Shown here: piece by piece, positions 15,070 to 58,130 of the stretch
Layout: every line of letters starts with the position of its first letter
Numbering within the stretch: position 1 is the stretch's first letter
NCBI GenBank assembly: GCA_013314855.1
Contig: JABUEW010000008.1
Location: 1-58,648, forward strand
Length of the DNA stretch: 58,648 nucleotides
Direction of reading: 5' to 3'
From: Bacillota bacterium
GTDB taxonomy: Bacteria > Bacillota > Clostridia > Acetivibrionales > DUMC01
Position numbers and translations under genes: made by a program
Notes under the pieces: model-generated
Told to the model about the DNA's origin: nothing
What the model saw: the letters and a program-made list of their open reading frames with translations, nothing else
The model's database searches: none

Positions 15070-16026
15070 ATGAATATAGATGAGATTAGGAAACTGGGAG
15101 AAAGAATAAGAGATAACATATCAAAAGTAATAGTGGGTAAGGAGGATGTAATAGAGCTTGTAATAACTACTCTTTTTTGTTCGGGACATGTATTGCTGGA
15201 AGATGTACCTGGTGTAGGAAAAACTTTACTTGCAAAGTGTTTGGCCAAATCCATAGAATGTGAGTTTAAAAGGATACAGTTTACTCCGGACTTGCTTCCT
15301 ACCGATTTGACCGGTATAAACTATTATAACCAAAAGATTGGAGAATTTGTTTTCCGGGCAGGGCCAATATTTACAAATATTGTTTTGGCTGATGAGATTA
15401 ACCGGGCTACGCCAAGGACACAATCCAGTCTATTGGAATGTATGGAAGAAGGGCAGGTTACAATAGATGGAGAAACAAAAAAATTATCCAGACCTTTTTT
15501 TGTTATAGCAACACAAAATCCGGTTGAAATCCAAGGTACTTTTCCTCTTCCCGAAGCACAGCTTGATAGGTTTTTTATGAGATTAAAGATTGGGTATCCC
15601 AATTCGGAAGAGGGAACAGCCATATTGGACAGGTTTGAAAAGTCCAGCCCTTTTCCAGCAATAACAAACGTTGCAAATGCAGAAGATATAATAGATGCCC
15701 AGGATTCCATAACCGGGGTAAAAGTGAGTAATGACCTGAAAAAATATATAATTGAAATAGTTGAAATGACAAGAAATCATGATAAAATTATTTTAGGGGT
15801 AAGTCCGCGGGGGAGTCTTGCATTAATGAAGGCTTCCCAGGCCTATGCAGCAATAAAAGGCCGGGATTTTGCAACCCCTGATGATATAAAACATGTTGCC
15901 GTGCCTGTACTTGCCCACAGAATAATTCTAAAAAGTCATGCCGTTACTTCAGGGATGGCAAATTCTGAAGCAGTGGTATCCGATATACTAAGGAAAGTAC
16001 CGGTACCCCTGGAGAGTGGTGAGTGA
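15070..16026 (+). CDS. MoxR-family AAA+ ATPase
   Basis: MoxR AAA+ proteins are chaperone-like ATPases, usually encoded with DUF58 proteins and thought to help assemble or activate membrane-associated complexes. The Walker A motif GVGKTLLAK, the Walker B motif LADEINRA, sensor 1 (ATQNP) and the FPLPEAQLDRF segment are intact. The 318-residue length is normal. I use the ATG at 15070, preceded by AGGGGGAAAG. Its stop codon abuts the DUF58 start, indicating translational coupling. Confidence 0.93.
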   Translation: MNIDEIRKLGERIRDNISKVIVGKEDVIELVITTLFCSGHVLLEDVPGVGKTLLAKCLAKSIECEFKRIQFTPDLLPTDLTGINYYNQKIGEFVFRAGPIFTNIVLADEINRATPRTQSSLLECMEEGQVTIDGETKKLSRPFFVIATQNPVEIQGTFPLPEAQLDRFFMRLKIGYPNSEEGTAILDRFEKSSPFPAITNVANAEDIIDAQDSITGVKVSNDLKKYIIEIVEMTRNHDKIILGVSPRGSLALMKASQAYAAIKGRDFATPDDIKHVAVPVLAHRIILKSHAVTSGMANSEAVVSDILRKVPVPLESGE

Positions 16027-48848: not shown

Positions 48849-48863
48849 AGGCAGGTGCCACAA

Positions 48864-49457
48864 TTGGATTACTCAAAACAACTGGAAGAATTAATTTTAA
48901 AAAATGATGGTATTGTTTTTACTAAGACCGTGAGTGAGGCAGGTATCCCAAGAACTTATCTTTCTGAATTTGTAAAACGAGGAAGTTTAGAAAGATTGGA
49001 ACGTGGTGTGTATATTTTAAAAGATTGTCATGATGATGAAATGTACCGTTTGCAGGGCAAATTTACACAAGCTGTTTTTTCTCATGAAACAGCCTTGTTT
49101 TTGCATGATTTGACCGATAGAGACCCGCTCCAATACTCAGTAACTGTCAAGGCAGGATACAATGCGAAAAATATAAAGGATAGCGGAGTAAAGGTCTATT
49201 CTATCAAAAAGGATTTATACGATTTAGGGCTTATCACTGCAAAGACCCCATTTAATCGTTTAGTGAAAACCTATAATATGGAGAGGACAATTTGTGATAT
49301 TATTCGAAGCCGGAGTCAAATGGATATTGAAATTTTAACAGACGCTTTAAAAAGATATACAAAACGCAAAGACAAGAACCTTCCACAGCTTATGCGTTAT
49401 GCAGATAAATTTAGGATCACCATTGTTTTGCGAAAATACCTGGAGGTGCTGCTATGA
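48864..49457 (+). CDS. abiEi: AbiEi-type antitoxin / autorepressor
   Basis: AbiEi is the antitoxin of a type IV toxin-antitoxin system and an autorepressor. The N-terminal winged-helix segment (KNDGIVFTKTVSEAGIPRTYL, then GSLERLERGVY) and the C-terminal domain with FSHETALFLHDL and TICDIIRSR are typical. I prefer a TTG start at 48864 (MDYSKQLEELI), which gives the family N-terminus and follows AGGTG by 6 bp; a GTG at 48855 is the alternative. The product is 197 residues. It overlaps AbiEii by 4 bp (ATGA). Confidence 0.88.
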   Translation: MDYSKQLEELILKNDGIVFTKTVSEAGIPRTYLSEFVKRGSLERLERGVYILKDCHDDEMYRLQGKFTQAVFSHETALFLHDLTDRDPLQYSVTVKAGYNAKNIKDSGVKVYSIKKDLYDLGLITAKTPFNRLVKTYNMERTICDIIRSRSQMDIEILTDALKRYTKRKDKNLPQLMRYADKFRITIVLRKYLEVLL

Positions 49458-50293
49458 AATCATCAACGCAGCTAAAAGCACTGATTCGCAATTTGGCAAA
49501 AGAGAAGAACATCAATGCCCAGATTTTGATGCGCAACTATATGTTTGAAAGACTGTTGGAACGCATCTCATTATCAAAGTATCGTTCCAAGTTTGTGTTA
49601 AAAGGGGGGATGCTTGTTGCAGCTATGGTGGGACTCGATGCCCGTTCTACTATGGACATGGATGCAACAATCAAAGGCTATCCCCTTTCAGAAGAAACTA
49701 TTAAAGAAGTTTTTGAAAATATCCTGGCTGTGCCGATTGATGATGGTACACAGATGAGAATTAAGGGTATTGAGGCGATTCGTGACGAAGCAGATTACAA
49801 TGGCTTGCGAGTATCCATAGAAGCCCTGTTTGATGGGATTCATACACCTCTAAAGATTGATATAACGGCAGGAGATAAAATAACACCGAGAGAAATATTA
49901 TACCGATTTAACCTCATGTTCGAAGAACGCCAGATCGATATTTTTGCTTATAACCTTGAAACAGTGCTTGCAGAAAAATTGGAAACGATTATTTCCCGCG
50001 GCACAACCAACACTCGCATGAGGGATTTCTACGATATATACATATTGCAAAAAATGCATTCGGAAATCTTGGATAAAGAACTGCTTGCGAAAGCTCTTGT
50101 GTCAACCTCAATAAACCGTGGCACATATGGTGTTCTGGCAGAGGGCCAAACTATTATAAATGAAGTTTCAAAAGATATTTTCATGCAAAAGTTATGGGAG
50201 AATTATCGCAAGAAATACAGCTATGCAGAAGATATTCGCTGGGATGAAGTTATAGTAGCGGTTAATGAAATTTGGCAAGTCGCAAAGGTTTAG
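49454..50293 (+). CDS. abiEii: AbiEii-type nucleotidyltransferase toxin
   Basis: AbiEii toxins are DNA polymerase beta-like nucleotidyltransferases that stop growth upon phage infection, probably by modifying tRNA. The conserved motifs are readable: KGGMLVAAMVGLDARSTMDMD (motif I, near residues 49-69), LKIDITAGD (motif II) and ETVLAEKLETIISRG with TRMRDFYDIYIL (motifs III-IV). The length is 279 residues, intact. Overlap with AbiEi indicates translational coupling. Confidence 0.9.
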   Translation: MKSSTQLKALIRNLAKEKNINAQILMRNYMFERLLERISLSKYRSKFVLKGGMLVAAMVGLDARSTMDMDATIKGYPLSEETIKEVFENILAVPIDDGTQMRIKGIEAIRDEADYNGLRVSIEALFDGIHTPLKIDITAGDKITPREILYRFNLMFEERQIDIFAYNLETVLAEKLETIISRGTTNTRMRDFYDIYILQKMHSEILDKELLAKALVSTSINRGTYGVLAEGQTIINEVSKDIFMQKLWENYRKKYSYAEDIRWDEVIVAVNEIWQVAKV

Positions 50294-50722: not shown

Positions 50723-53647
50723 ATGGAATATAATGAGCTTTTTGAAAAATACCGGAGGCTGCTGGAGGAAAATCAAAGGTTATTGGCTGAAAATGAAAAC
50801 TTAAGAAAACAGCTTGGATTATCATTACCGGTACCCTGTACTGAAAATGATGTTGAAGCCTCAATAGAGGTAAATGACATCCAGACAGTTGAGGCAGTCA
50901 AACCAGGACATGTAACCAATAGTAGCACCCCGGAGGATAAAATTAACCTGTTTATGTCGTTGTTTAGAGGCAGGGATGATGTCTATGCAAAAAGGTGGCA
51001 AAGCAAAGAGGGTAAATCGGGGTATTCTCCCGTATGTTTGAATGAGTGGGCAAGAGGAATTTGCAATAAGCCAAAGATTAAATGCTCCGAATGCAATAAT
51101 AAAAACTATGCAGCTTTGGACTTTGCAGCAATAGATAAGCATCTCAGGGGCAAAGATGTTTTTGGCATATATCCTATGTTGCCTGATGAAACCTGCTATC
51201 TCCTTGCTATCGATTTCGATGATGAAGGCTGGGAAAAAGATATATCAGCTTTAAGGGATATCTGTGCAGAAAAAAATATTCCAATTGCAGTTGAACGTTC
51301 TCGTTCAGGGAATGGAGCGCATGTATGGTTCTTTTTTAATGACAAGGTAAATGCTGCATCGGCCAGAAAATTTGGTACGGCACTTCTTACGCATGCAATG
51401 GCCAAAAGACATGAAATTAAATTTACTTCATACGACCGCTTGTTTCCAAACCAGGATACACTTCCTAAAGGCGGTCTTGGGAATCTTATCGCATTACCTT
51501 TACAATTAAATGCACGCAGAAACAACAACAGTGTTTTTATAGATGAAAATCTCCGGCCCTATGAGGATCAGTGGAATTTTTTGAGCAGTATTCGAAAGCT
51601 CAGTGAAAGTGAAATTGACTTATACATTTCTCAACTATGCAGTGGCAGTGAATTGGGTGATTTAAGACAGAATGAAGATGAAGAATGCAAGCCATGGGAG
51701 AGAAGCAAGACAAATTATAAATTAAGCAAGTCCGATTTCCCAGTCACTGTTTATATAACCAAAGCAAATATGCTTTACATTAGTAAAAATCGCTTTTCAC
51801 ATAAAGCATTGAATATTATTAAACGTCTGGCAGCCTTTAAAAACTCTGACTTTTATAAGGCTCAAGCTATGAGATTGCCGACTTTTGATAAGCCCAGAAT
51901 TATTTCCTTATCTGACGAGACGCCTGAGTACTTGTGTCTTCCAAGGGGATGTGAGCTTGATCTGATAAACCTGTTTAATGCTCACAAGGTGGATGTTAAA
52001 TGGGTTGATAAAAGCTATTCAGGAAAACGGATTGACGTTGAATTCAACGGCCGGCTTCGTGATGAGCAGGAAGATGCTGTTAATTCCATGATACAATATG
52101 ACATCGGTGTATTATCGGCAACAACTGCATTTGGTAAAACCGTTATTGGAGCGAAAATTATATCAGTAAAAAAGGTAAATACTCTTATACTTGTTCATAC
52201 TCAGCAATTATTAGAGCAGTGGAAGGAACGTTTGAACCAGTTTCTTGTAATCAACGAAGATCTTCCTTCTGATGAGATTAAGAAAAGAGGCAGGAAAAAG
52301 AGCAGAAGTCTTATTGGTCAGCTAGGGGGAGGAAAAAACAATCTAAGTGGCATTATTGATATCGCTATTATGCAGTCATTGGTAAAGGGAGATGAGGTTA
52401 AGGACTTTATCCGCAACTACGGCATGGTGATAGTAGATGAATGCCATCATGTTCCCGCATTTAGTTTCGAACAGATATTGAAAAACGTAGATAGCAAATA
52501 TGTTTACGGATTAACTGCAACTCCGGTAAGGCAGGATGGACACCACCCCATCATATTCATGCATTGCGGTCCGGTCAGGTATAAAGTGGATGCTAGAAAG
52601 CAAGCTGAAAAAAGACCTTTTGAGCATTATGTCATTCCGCGCTTTACTCCTTTCAGAAAGCCTATCAGCCAGGATGAAAAGGAATGGTCTATTGGACAAA
52701 TTTATGCTGAAATCAGCACCAGTCAAATCCGTAACAAATTAATTGTTGATGATGTTATTAAAAGCGTAAATGAGGGTCGCAATCCCATTGTTCTAACTGA
52801 AAGAACTGCACATGTTGAGGTGATTGTAAACGCTTTAAAGGAAGCACTTCCAAATGTTATTACATTAACCGGAGGCATGTCTGCAAAGGAAAGAAAAGCT
52901 GCACTTGAAAGACTTTCAAGTATACCAGCAGAGAGTAATTTTGTCATAGTTGCAACCGGTAAATTTGTTGGCGAGGGTTTTGATGAACCAAGACTTGATA
53001 CTTTGTTTCTTGCGATGCCTGTAGCTTGGAAGGGTACAGTTCAACAGTACGCGGGCAGGCTCCACAGATTATATCAAAATAAGAGTGAAGTTCAGATTTA
53101 TGATTATGTGGATGTTCATGTAGGCGTACTTGAAAGAATGTATCAAAAAAGATTGAAGGGCTACGCCTCTATCGGATACTCAGCCAGAGGAGACTGCAAA
53201 CCTTTTGAGTCTATTAATGCAATTTTTGACAATAAAAACTTCCTGACAGTTTTCAGCAATGATATTTCGTCTGCTAAATCAGACATTGTCATTGTCAGTC
53301 CTTATATCACCAAAAAGCGTTTAAGCCAGATGTTAAGTATTCTTATGACCGGGATTAACAATGGTGCAAAGCTTACCGTCATTACCCGCCCTGAAACGGA
53401 TTATAAGGAAAGGGACAGGCTTACGTTTGAGGAGATGATTAGTTCCATAAAGAATACGGGAGCCAGTATTATTTTTAAATCAAATATACATCAAAAGTTT
53501 GCAGTAATTGATCAAAGAATTGTTTGGTATGGCAGCATAAATCTTTTGAGCTTCGGAAATTCCGAGGAGAGCATCATGAGGTTGGATAGCCTGAATATTG
53601 CAAATGAATTAATAGGTACGATTGAAGAAATATTAAACGAGAATTAA
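50723..53647 (+). CDS. TOTE-type primase / SF2 helicase / PLD nuclease protein
   Basis: This 974-residue protein appears intact. Order: an N-terminal coiled coil (residues 1-35); a CxxC-like cluster near residue 110 (GICNKPKIKCSEC); an archaeo-eukaryotic primase-like domain with LAIDFDDEGWEKD near 163 and SGNGAHVWFFF near 197; an SF2 helicase with AFGKT (Walker A, near 470), VDECHH (near 573) and QYAGRLHR (motif VI); and a C-terminal phospholipase D nuclease half-domain with HQKFAVID near 923. This architecture matches the TOTE conflict-system family. The radical SAM gene follows 16 bp downstream. The start at 50723 has no strong ribosome site. Confidence 0.85.
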   Translation: MEYNELFEKYRRLLEENQRLLAENENLRKQLGLSLPVPCTENDVEASIEVNDIQTVEAVKPGHVTNSSTPEDKINLFMSLFRGRDDVYAKRWQSKEGKSGYSPVCLNEWARGICNKPKIKCSECNNKNYAALDFAAIDKHLRGKDVFGIYPMLPDETCYLLAIDFDDEGWEKDISALRDICAEKNIPIAVERSRSGNGAHVWFFFNDKVNAASARKFGTALLTHAMAKRHEIKFTSYDRLFPNQDTLPKGGLGNLIALPLQLNARRNNNSVFIDENLRPYEDQWNFLSSIRKLSESEIDLYISQLCSGSELGDLRQNEDEECKPWERSKTNYKLSKSDFPVTVYITKANMLYISKNRFSHKALNIIKRLAAFKNSDFYKAQAMRLPTFDKPRIISLSDETPEYLCLPRGCELDLINLFNAHKVDVKWVDKSYSGKRIDVEFNGRLRDEQEDAVNSMIQYDIGVLSATTAFGKTVIGAKIISVKKVNTLILVHTQQLLEQWKERLNQFLVINEDLPSDEIKKRGRKKSRSLIGQLGGGKNNLSGIIDIAIMQSLVKGDEVKDFIRNYGMVIVDECHHVPAFSFEQILKNVDSKYVYGLTATPVRQDGHHPIIFMHCGPVRYKVDARKQAEKRPFEHYVIPRFTPFRKPISQDEKEWSIGQIYAEISTSQIRNKLIVDDVIKSVNEGRNPIVLTERTAHVEVIVNALKEALPNVITLTGGMSAKERKAALERLSSIPAESNFVIVATGKFVGEGFDEPRLDTLFLAMPVAWKGTVQQYAGRLHRLYQNKSEVQIYDYVDVHVGVLERMYQKRLKGYASIGYSARGDCKPFESINAIFDNKNFLTVFSNDISSAKSDIVIVSPYITKKRLSQMLSILMTGINNGAKLTVITRPETDYKERDRLTFEEMISSIKNTGASIIFKSNIHQKFAVIDQRIVWYGSINLLSFGNSEESIMRLDSLNIANELIGTIEEILNEN

Positions 53648-53663: not shown

Positions 53664-55172
53664 ATGAAATCTAATTTGCTAAAGCTTTCAAACAGAGTCA
53701 TAATAAGAAAAGAATATTTTGGCGGGATTCTTTTCAACAGGGATACCGGTGATGTTATCGAGGTTGATCGGGAAGCTTTTACCGTAGTTTCAATAATAAA
53801 AGATATTGAAGTTGTTTATATGAAAACCTTGTTGGATCTGCCGATATCCTATAAAGGGAGAAGAATTGATAGAGAAAGAATAAAAGGTGTTATATCAAGG
53901 CTTAAGGCTATGGGTATTATCAATGTAATGCCAAATGGAGTCCTGTCTGAAAATTATAGAAAGATGCTTGAAGAAAAAAGCCTTATAAAAATCAAGTGGC
54001 CGACTTATGAACATTTAAGTGCTCCTGAAACAGTTCACTGGGCAGTGACCTTTAAATGCGGTGAATCATGTCCTGATTGTTATATTGCACGTCACAAAAG
54101 ATTGTTTGCATATGAACTTGATACTCAGGATGCACTTAAACTTATAAGTAAAATAGCAGATAGTGGTGTTTTCCAGCTTGCAATCGGTGGATGAGAACCC
54201 TTTATAAGAAATGATCTGGAGAACATCGTCCATAATACATCGGAAAAAGGCTTGATTGTTCATATTACAACTGGAAAATATGAAATCGAGCGGAATCGGC
54301 TTGATGCCATGGCAGGACATATAAAGACCCTTCAAATCGGGATAAGAACCGATGAGCTTTTGCTCAAAGGCACATGTGTTGTAGAAAAGCTTAGAGCATT
54401 AGTAACGCAGTTGAATGAACGTGACATAATTACCGGCGCAAATTTAATTATGACAAGGTCCTCCATATATAATTTCGATAAAATAGTTGAAATGCTTATA
54501 AGCAGTGGCTTTAAGCGGTATACTCTGCTTAGGTACAAGCCTCCTGGAAGTGTGAAACGGTGGCTTCAAGAGAAGCCGAATAAGCATGATCTGGATCTTT
54601 TAGAGGAAAGATTGACAGTGATGCAGGAAATGCATACAGATATACTTTTCCGGATTGATTGTGCCCTTTCTTTCCTGGAACGGAGATTGAATCCGCAGAC
54701 AGCCTTATATTCAGGAATCAGAGGATGTATTGCAGGGGAAAGGATAGTATCTGTCGCGCCTGATGGTTCTGTTTACCCTTGTTCACAGCTTGTTGGGAAT
54801 ATTTTTAACGCAGGTAACTTGCTGAATGAGAATTTTGAATCTATTTGGAATAGGAGCAATGTAGTTAAAAAATACAGGGACTTCAGAGGAAAAAAGAGTT
54901 TTAAAAACGGCAGCTGTGGAAAATGTCAGGCAAAAGCTTTTTGCGGTGGATGCAGAGTCTTTGCAGAGGATGCAATCGGTTCTGATCCCGGATGTCCTGG
55001 ACCTTTATATGAAGGTAAACATACTGATGATGAATATGATGTCATAGCTGATATACAGGATACCATAGGCTATACTGACGCAGGCTTTCCATATGCAACC
55101 CGTGAAGGAATTGAGGAATGGCTAGAAAAGGGTAATAATAGAAATTATCCGTCTTGGATCAATAATATATAA
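53664..55172 (+). pseudogene. PqqD-like / radical SAM / SPASM enzyme with in-frame UGA in GGGEP motif
   Basis: Read through one UGA at 54192-54194 (codon 177), this is a 502-residue protein. The N-terminal 100 residues look like a PqqD/RRE-type peptide-recognition domain. The cluster motif CGESCPDC (Cys132, 136, 139) begins the radical SAM barrel. The UGA replaces the third glycine of GGGEP (IGG-stop-EPFIRND). A SPASM domain with a dense cysteine array follows (CIAG...CSQL...CGKCQAKAFCGGC...CPGPL). A one-base change GGA to TGA would produce it, so a pseudogene is the default; selenocysteine insertion is the alternative. The gene lies 16 bp after the TOTE gene. Confidence 0.75.
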
Positions 55173-55198: not shown

Positions 55199-55584
55199 AT
55201 GAGGATAATAAGTATCAGAAAAGGCTTTACTTCAGACCATAGTTCAACATCCTATGAATTCTTAGCCGTAGATAAGGCACTTGGCAAGAAAGAGAAAGCA
55301 GAGGTAGTTTCTCTTTCCAGAAGGGCTAACCCTACATCAAGAAGAGTCAGCTTTATTTACCATGTTGATGGGTATGATATACCCGGCGGATGGGAGAATT
55401 TGATGAAGAAATATTATGATGTGATGTACCGCTTATAAATGGGGATTACAGGACTTTATATGCCGTATGGGAAAAATATGGAGGTTTTGATGATGAGGAG
55501 GAAGATGAATTTGACATTCCAATCCCTCAAGATAAAAAGGCAGGTAAGAATATAGTAGAACAATTCAGGAATATTTTGGACTAA
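55199..55584 (+). pseudogene. Small HSSTSYEF-type protein, frameshifted or internally deleted
   Basis: An ATG at 55199 preceded by CAGGAGG opens MRIISIRKGFTSDHSSTSYEF and runs 79 codons to a stop at 55436-55438. The plus-strand frame beginning at 55438 continues without a start codon as NGDYRTLYAVWEKYGG and an acidic tail (FDDEEEDEFDIP), ending 55584. The two parts look like one gene broken by a frame change, probably with loss of a middle segment. I know no function. It lies 26 bp after the radical SAM gene and could be its substrate or partner. Confidence 0.55.
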
Positions 55585-56435: not shown

Positions 56436-58130
56436 CAGCAAAAACGGCTGCTTGAAGAACAGATTGCGGAAATCACTAACGGCATCCGGGAGCTAAAAGA
56501 GGAACGCGGCGAGCGTTACGCCATCAAGCAGCTTGAAAAGACTAAAAAGACCTTGAAACTTAAGCTGGATAAGCTCAACGACACCAGCCGCAAGGACGAT
56601 GTGGTGACCTTTGAGGAACTGGGCGTTGACCGGCTGTTTGTGGATGAAGCGGATTTTTACAAAAACCTCTTTCTTTACACAAAAATGCGCAATGTGGCGG
56701 GCTTATCCCAGACTGAGGCACAGAAGTCCTCCGACATGTTTGCCAAATGCCGGTATCTGGATGAATTAACCGAAGGGCGCGGCGTCATCTTTGCAACAGA
56801 AACGCCCATTTCCAACTCCATCACCGAGATGTACACCATGCAGCGGTATCTGCAATATGAAACCCTGCGCAAAAACGGGCTCCAGCACTTTGACTGCTGG
56901 GCCTCCACCTTTGGGGAAACCGTAACCGCCATCGAGCTTGCGCCGGAGGGCACAGGTTACCGGGCTAAAACAAGGTTCGCACGGTTCTACAACCTGCCGA
57001 AACTGATGAATATGTTCAAGGAAATCGCGGACATCAAGACGGCGGATATGCTGAACCTTCCTGTGCCCAAAGCGAACTACCACAATGTGGCGGTGAAGCC
57101 GAGCAAATTTCAGCAGGACATGGTGGTCGAACTTGCGGAGCGTGCCGAACGGGTGCGCGCCAGGCTGGTGGAACCGTATGAGGATAACATGCTCACAATC
57201 ACCAACGACGGTCGGAAGCTGGCCCTTGACCAGCGGCTGATGAGCTCCATGCTTCCCGACAATGAAGAAAGCAAGGTAAATGCCTGCGTGGAAAATGTGT
57301 TCCGCCTCTGGCAGGAAAACAGCGATAAGAAGCTGACGCAGCTTGTGTTCTGCGACCTGTCCATTCCAAAGAACGATGGGAATTTCAATGTGTATGACGA
57401 CATACGCCAAAAGCTTATTGCCCGCGGCGTTCCCGCCGATGAAGTTGCTTTCATCCACGATACCGACACAGAGATCAAGAAAAAGGAACTGTTTGCCAAG
57501 GTACGCAAGGGACAGGTGCGAATTCTGCTGGGCTCCACCTTTAAAATGGGGGCCGGAACCAATGTCCAGGACCTTTTGATTGCCCTCCATGACCTGGACT
57601 GCCCGTGGCGGCCCCGGGATCTGGAACAGCGCAGTGGAAGAATTGTCCGTCAGGGCAATAAAAACGATGAGGTGCATATCTTCCGGTATGTGACGGAAAA
57701 CACCTTTGACGCTTATCTCTACCAGATACTTGAGAACAAGCAGCGTTTTATTTCGCAGATTATGACCAGCAAATCCCCTGTGAGAAGCGCCATTGATTTA
57801 TTGTCCTATGGCACGTTGGAGCTGCTTTCCGGCAGGGACTGGCGGCAGGATAATTGTTTGTCACTTGCGGGCATCTATATGCCCAAGAAGATTATTGAGG
57901 AAAGTACACTACCCGCCGCGCTCACGCAATACTTAAAAGACTTCCCGAAAATTGGTGAAATAGCCCTGCATTTGGATAACGATACGGCTGGTTGGCTGGC
58001 AGCAAAAACTATAAAGACTATTCTTCCTCTCCCCTATACCGTTTTAGATGAGCCGCCAAAGTACGGGAAGGATTATAATGATTATTTAAAAATCGCTTTA
58101 AAGATGCGACAACCGCCTGAACGCGAATAA
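56436..58130 (+). pseudogene. Fusion of two integrative-element gene fragments (SNF2/DEAD helicase and DUF3991-TOPRIM)
   Basis: Frame-open sequence from a stop at 56433 to 58130 encodes an N-terminally truncated helicase of Tn1549-like elements (EELGVDRLFVDEADFYKN, then FATETPISNS, LLGSTFKMGAGTN, RDLEQRSGRIVRQGN). At about residue 450 the sequence switches from the helicase (MTSKSPVRSA) to the C-terminal half of a DUF3991/TOPRIM protein (IDLLSYGTLE, HLDNDTAG, GKDYNDYL). The helicase half is visibly richer in G+C than the flanks. The motif normally ATGTP reads ATETP. No start codon or ribosome site fits; the product is likely non-functional. Confidence 0.8.

Follow-up and report, generated by a model that had tools for sequence, protein, structure and literature searches.

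The locus analysed here raises the question of why a gene for a radical SAM enzyme should carry a UGA codon inside its SAM-binding motif. In the window, that is, the whole stretch of 58,648 nucleotides under analysis, the reading frame runs from ATG 53664 to a terminal TAA at 55170-55172. It holds a single internal stop, a TGA at codon 177, with 176 codons upstream and 325 downstream and no other in-frame stop, as the first-pass annotation had counted. The features in question are as follows.

53664..55172, forward strand: interrupted radical SAM/SPASM gene (PF04055, PF13186; 77% identity with L022:3239-4777)
54057..54080, forward strand: CxxxCxxC [4Fe-4S] cluster motif, residues 132-139, intact (motif and alignment)
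54192..54194, forward strand: in-frame TGA, codon 177, at the otherwise invariant Gly of GGGEP (alignment with relatives)

When the UGA is ignored, the product is a radical SAM/SPASM protein of 502 residues that scores over the cut-offs for PF04055 (37.3 bits) and PF13186 (40.9 bits). The assignment to a radical SAM enzyme, in which the usual GGGEP reads IGG-UGA-EP, was thus borne out. The read-through product keeps the cluster cysteines C132, C136 and C139, all three invariant in the alignment of relatives. Furthermore, the open frame across the stop is far beyond chance, as the read-through protein shares 77% identity from end to end with an intact protein of 512 residues. With the TGA at codon 177, the gene is not a complete open reading frame.

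The closest relative, found in a species-level genome collection, is L022 (MAG Bacillota Soudan_17), with 77% identity over its full length. A profile search across the phylum, covering 398 genomes, added seven relatives (G159, G463, G438, G452, G219, G494 and G156) and recovered the Soudan_17 contig again, as G225; these seven and L022/G225 are the eight other genomes counted here. A repeat search with a larger alignment returned the same genomes and no additional ones. The position of the UGA is Gly in all eight, the column being invariant, and the motif region has no internal stop. The Gly codon was read directly in seven relatives (GGA three times, GGT twice, GGC and GGG once each); in L036/G438, where the motif reads IGGGEA, Gly was assigned by alignment. 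Neither Cys nor UGA occupies the position in any of the eight. This comparison, which had been proposed earlier as a means of telling a mutation from selenocysteine, favours a mutation, and intact relatives without the stop are what a nonsense pseudogene should have.

An in-frame UGA with conserved coding sequence on both sides is also what a selenoprotein gene would display, and the first-pass annotation had offered selenocysteine, inserted into the SAM-binding motif, as its alternative. The in-frame UGA itself is the sole support for that reading. In a genome that is 96.6% complete, the search for SelA gave no match, and the matches to SelD were below threshold (83 bits, with the cut-off at 125). 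SelB was matched only below the cut-off of 242 bits, the best score (191.6 bits) belonging to the EF-Tu gene inside the window. No match to tRNA-Sec in the genome reached the gathering score, and the ones inspected were ordinary Gly, Arg, Ser, Leu, Met or Trp tRNAs. Consequently, the suggested check of selA, selB, selC and selD ended with no match over the cut-off for any of them. The sequence following the UGA was equally unsupportive.

54195..54245, forward strand: putative SECIS region 3' of the UGA, without stable structure (folding z = +1.4; Rfam)

Starting at the UGA, a stretch of 54 nt has a folding energy of -3.7 kcal/mol, which 191 of 200 shuffled sequences equal or surpass in stability, in line with the earlier judgement that the weak downstream stem was too poor for a SECIS. 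There was no Rfam match to a SECIS after the UGA at E values up to 10; matches near the site to the histone 3' stem-loop and HAV CRE models did not reach their gathering scores and were put down to chance. The Rfam model SECIS_1 (RF00031) had no match in the whole genome, and since 14 controls were equally silent this is no proof of absence. In radical SAM enzymes the GGEP motif contacts SAM via its backbone, and the position has no redox role, which also argues against selenocysteine at codon 177. With Gly, and not Cys, in all relatives and no machinery over the cut-offs, we consider the selenocysteine reading refuted.

The gene directly after the radical SAM gene (55199-55578) tells more about the state of this locus. 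It encodes a partner that forms a conserved two-gene unit with the radical SAM gene: the partner gene comes directly after it in seven of the eight other genomes, and the contig of G219 ends at that point. Partner proteins are mostly about 216-260 residues long, with a near-invariant N-terminus, IISxRxGFxSDHSSTSYEFLAxD, in which F is followed by T or A and then by S or A. In the window, the partner is present as two pieces in different frames.

55199..55432, forward strand: 5' partner remnant with the GFTSDHSSTSYEF motif (residues 1-78 of the 227-residue L022 relative, 91% identity)
55429..55578, forward strand: 3' partner remnant in the other frame (residues 177-226 of the L022 relative, 80% identity)
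L022:4804-5487; L043:4944-5597; L044:7068-7859; L045:4617-5267; L046:4807-5538; L049:4526-4981: partner copies in relatives, directly after the radical SAM gene (conserved N-terminus)

The 5' remnant runs into a TAA at 55436-55438. Alignment with the intact L022 copy indicates that about 298 bp are missing between the remnants, a length that is not a multiple of three. A base-call error cannot account for this deletion, a lesion independent of the UGA; thus, the two-gene unit is inactivated. Separately, the G156 partner (L049:4526-4981) is short, at 151 residues, and is possibly another broken copy.

The broken partner also bears on whether the UGA might be read as another amino acid, through a code change or a suppressor tRNA, or be passed by programmed read-through that yields enzyme at a low level. 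In favour of this, the frame downstream of the UGA stays open throughout and keeps its conserved character. However, UGA ends ordinary genes in the window, such as those for MinD and RlmD, the tRNA-Trp found carries the anticodon CCA, and the partner gene is broken as well; we therefore regard recoding or read-through as very improbable. Since UGA is a normal stop here, with a CCA tRNA-Trp and neither Sec machinery nor SECIS, both the selenoprotein and the code-change readings are unsupported. A second in-frame TGA (16024-16026), which joins two long frames, was also checked and proved to lie between two adjacent genes, a MoxR-like AAA ATPase and an otherwise unmatched open frame that is DUF58-like by eye.

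The age of the lesion was approached by assigning substitutions to the window and L022 branches with L034 as the outgroup. The window branch carries 49 nonsynonymous and 56 synonymous substitutions, and the L022 branch 49 and 46, respectively (Fisher p 0.57). The share of the window branch that was neutral is at most about 11% (upper bound, 95% interval; pairwise dN/dS about 0.21), assuming that the L022 copy was functional throughout. The comparison has one close relative behind it, at 77% identity, which we counted against our preferred explanation. Constraint was thus unrelaxed on the window branch, so the gene was under selection until recently and the stop is young.

Normal constraint before the stop is equally expected if the base is wrong and the enzyme intact. 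An error in sequencing or assembly, or a minority variant entering the metagenome consensus, would need one substitution only in a genome of 252 contigs, and the remainder of the gene is under normal constraint. However, such an error could not produce the separate deletion of about 298 bp in the partner, and another nearby gene is a relic, so that decay is expected at this locus. We consider it improbable, though the least so of the alternatives, that the real gene is intact. A base-call error at 54192 would in any case leave the two-gene unit broken and would not change this conclusion.

We therefore conclude that the UGA is very probably a recent nonsense mutation causing loss of function, in a two-gene unit that is out of use. 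The first-pass annotation had likewise held a fresh nonsense mutation to be likeliest, and this is supported by the independent lesion in the partner gene and by the unrelaxed constraint before the stop. In radical SAM enzymes, the methionine end of SAM is bound by the GGEP motif. Under the proposed sequence of events, the Gly codon of the SAM-binding GGGEP in the radical SAM/SPASM gene would have become UGA, and translation would end after 176 residues and leave no functional enzyme. The stop removes the remaining barrel and the SPASM domain, so the predicted 176-residue product would not be active. A predicted restart at TTG 54252 would yield a protein without CxxxCxxC, and presumably no read-through product is made. 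With the downstream partner destroyed by the frameshifting deletion of about 298 bp, the entire unit is out of use.

The surroundings of the unit in the window are those listed below.

48855-50293: toxin-antitoxin pair of the AbiEi/AbiEii type, ahead of the TOTE gene
50723..53647, forward strand: TOTE-type primase/helicase/PLD protein, open (PF22548, E 2.6e-107)
56436..58127, forward strand: relic, consisting of an internal part of a giant DarB-like (antirestriction) helicase/methylase of mobile elements, then a Toprim-like segment (phrog_10089)

The TOTE-type gene is the upstream neighbour and ends 16 bases ahead of the radical SAM gene; the relic covers profile positions 2476-2980 of the 4647 in phrog_10089. 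On our best reading, the unit is unneeded and lies beside other relics of mobile-element cargo. Genomes of the same genus and the same family gave no match to the radical SAM gene, and the closest relative, L022/G225, belongs to another family of the phylum; we thus infer that the unit was acquired horizontally and later decayed or was discarded. Viral contigs and plasmids yielded no close relative, and a single phage record matched partially, at 22%. Depending on the genome, the neighbours of the unit include TOTE, AbiE, type III restriction and GmrSD genes. These neighbours prompted us to consider a defence role, which is not claimed: PADLOC gave weak viperin-model matches for the enzyme (E about 1e-10), reflecting generic radical SAM similarity, and no match for the partner. 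In two genomes, the unit has beside it a protein whose sequence begins with SYKEFMDxx and spans about 550-570 residues (L043:3040-4749 and L049:6645-8300); relatives of it occur elsewhere in the genome of the window, as pieces on other contigs, and it is a possible third member of the unit.

These results remove a false lead, namely a selenoprotein with Sec in its SAM-binding motif, and the residual interest lies in the intact unit, a radical SAM/SPASM enzyme with a "GFxSDHSSTSYEF" protein, rather than in the UGA. The partner copies tested fall in no Pfam, NCBIfam or PHROGs family, the exact partner motif was not found in viral contigs, and SSTSYEF is absent from the literature searched. The predicted structure of the partner is weak (pLDDT 65), and its model had no convincing PDB match (best E 0.04). 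The first 19 residues have pLDDT under 50 in the AlphaFold model, which would fit a flexible, modified tail and proves nothing. A distant homologue on a plasmid of Nostoc sp. C052 (L054:4983-6101, YYEFQALDRPL..., 27% identity) begins with the SYEF-like strand; the GFxSDHSST extension is missing, and no radical SAM gene is annotated within about 5 kb of it. Thus, judging from this one outside sequence, the extension may be specific to the pairing with a radical SAM enzyme. Tentatively, and with more doubt than confidence, we suggest that in the intact unit a radical SAM/SPASM enzyme not yet described modifies the adjacent partner at the near-invariant N-terminal stretch IISxRxGFxSDHSST(SYEF), which would be a new kind of protein maturation scattered among Bacillota. 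If this is true, the pair would be a new modification system in which a radical SAM enzyme acts on a protein.

Compared with known systems, the interrupted gene does not differ from ordinary bacterial nonsense pseudogenes, which show the same single premature stop, intact relatives and broken neighbour. It resembles the Sec-containing radical SAM proteins listed in PMC13188914 (TIGR04167 rSAM_SeCys, with the motif GxxU, and NF045646 TrsS) in being a radical SAM protein with an in-frame UGA. However, their one listed Sec motif is GxxU and not GGGEP, and the gene here has no Sec machinery, SECIS or Cys relative. The best matches of the enzyme are to the PqqE, mycofactocin MftC and NirJ-like group (NCBIfam TIGR02109, TIGR03962 and TIGR04055; E about 1e-24 to 1e-27), with which it has CxxxCxxC, GGGEP and the C-terminal SPASM cysteines in common. 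The copy here differs in being interrupted by a stop, and the enzyme scores 85-94 bits where the curated cut-offs are 265-500, which places it in none of these families. At the curated NCBIfam cut-offs, the enzyme falls far short of all the specific families listed (equivalog or exception), and the SPASM domain model TIGR04085 is the only one listed that it passes.
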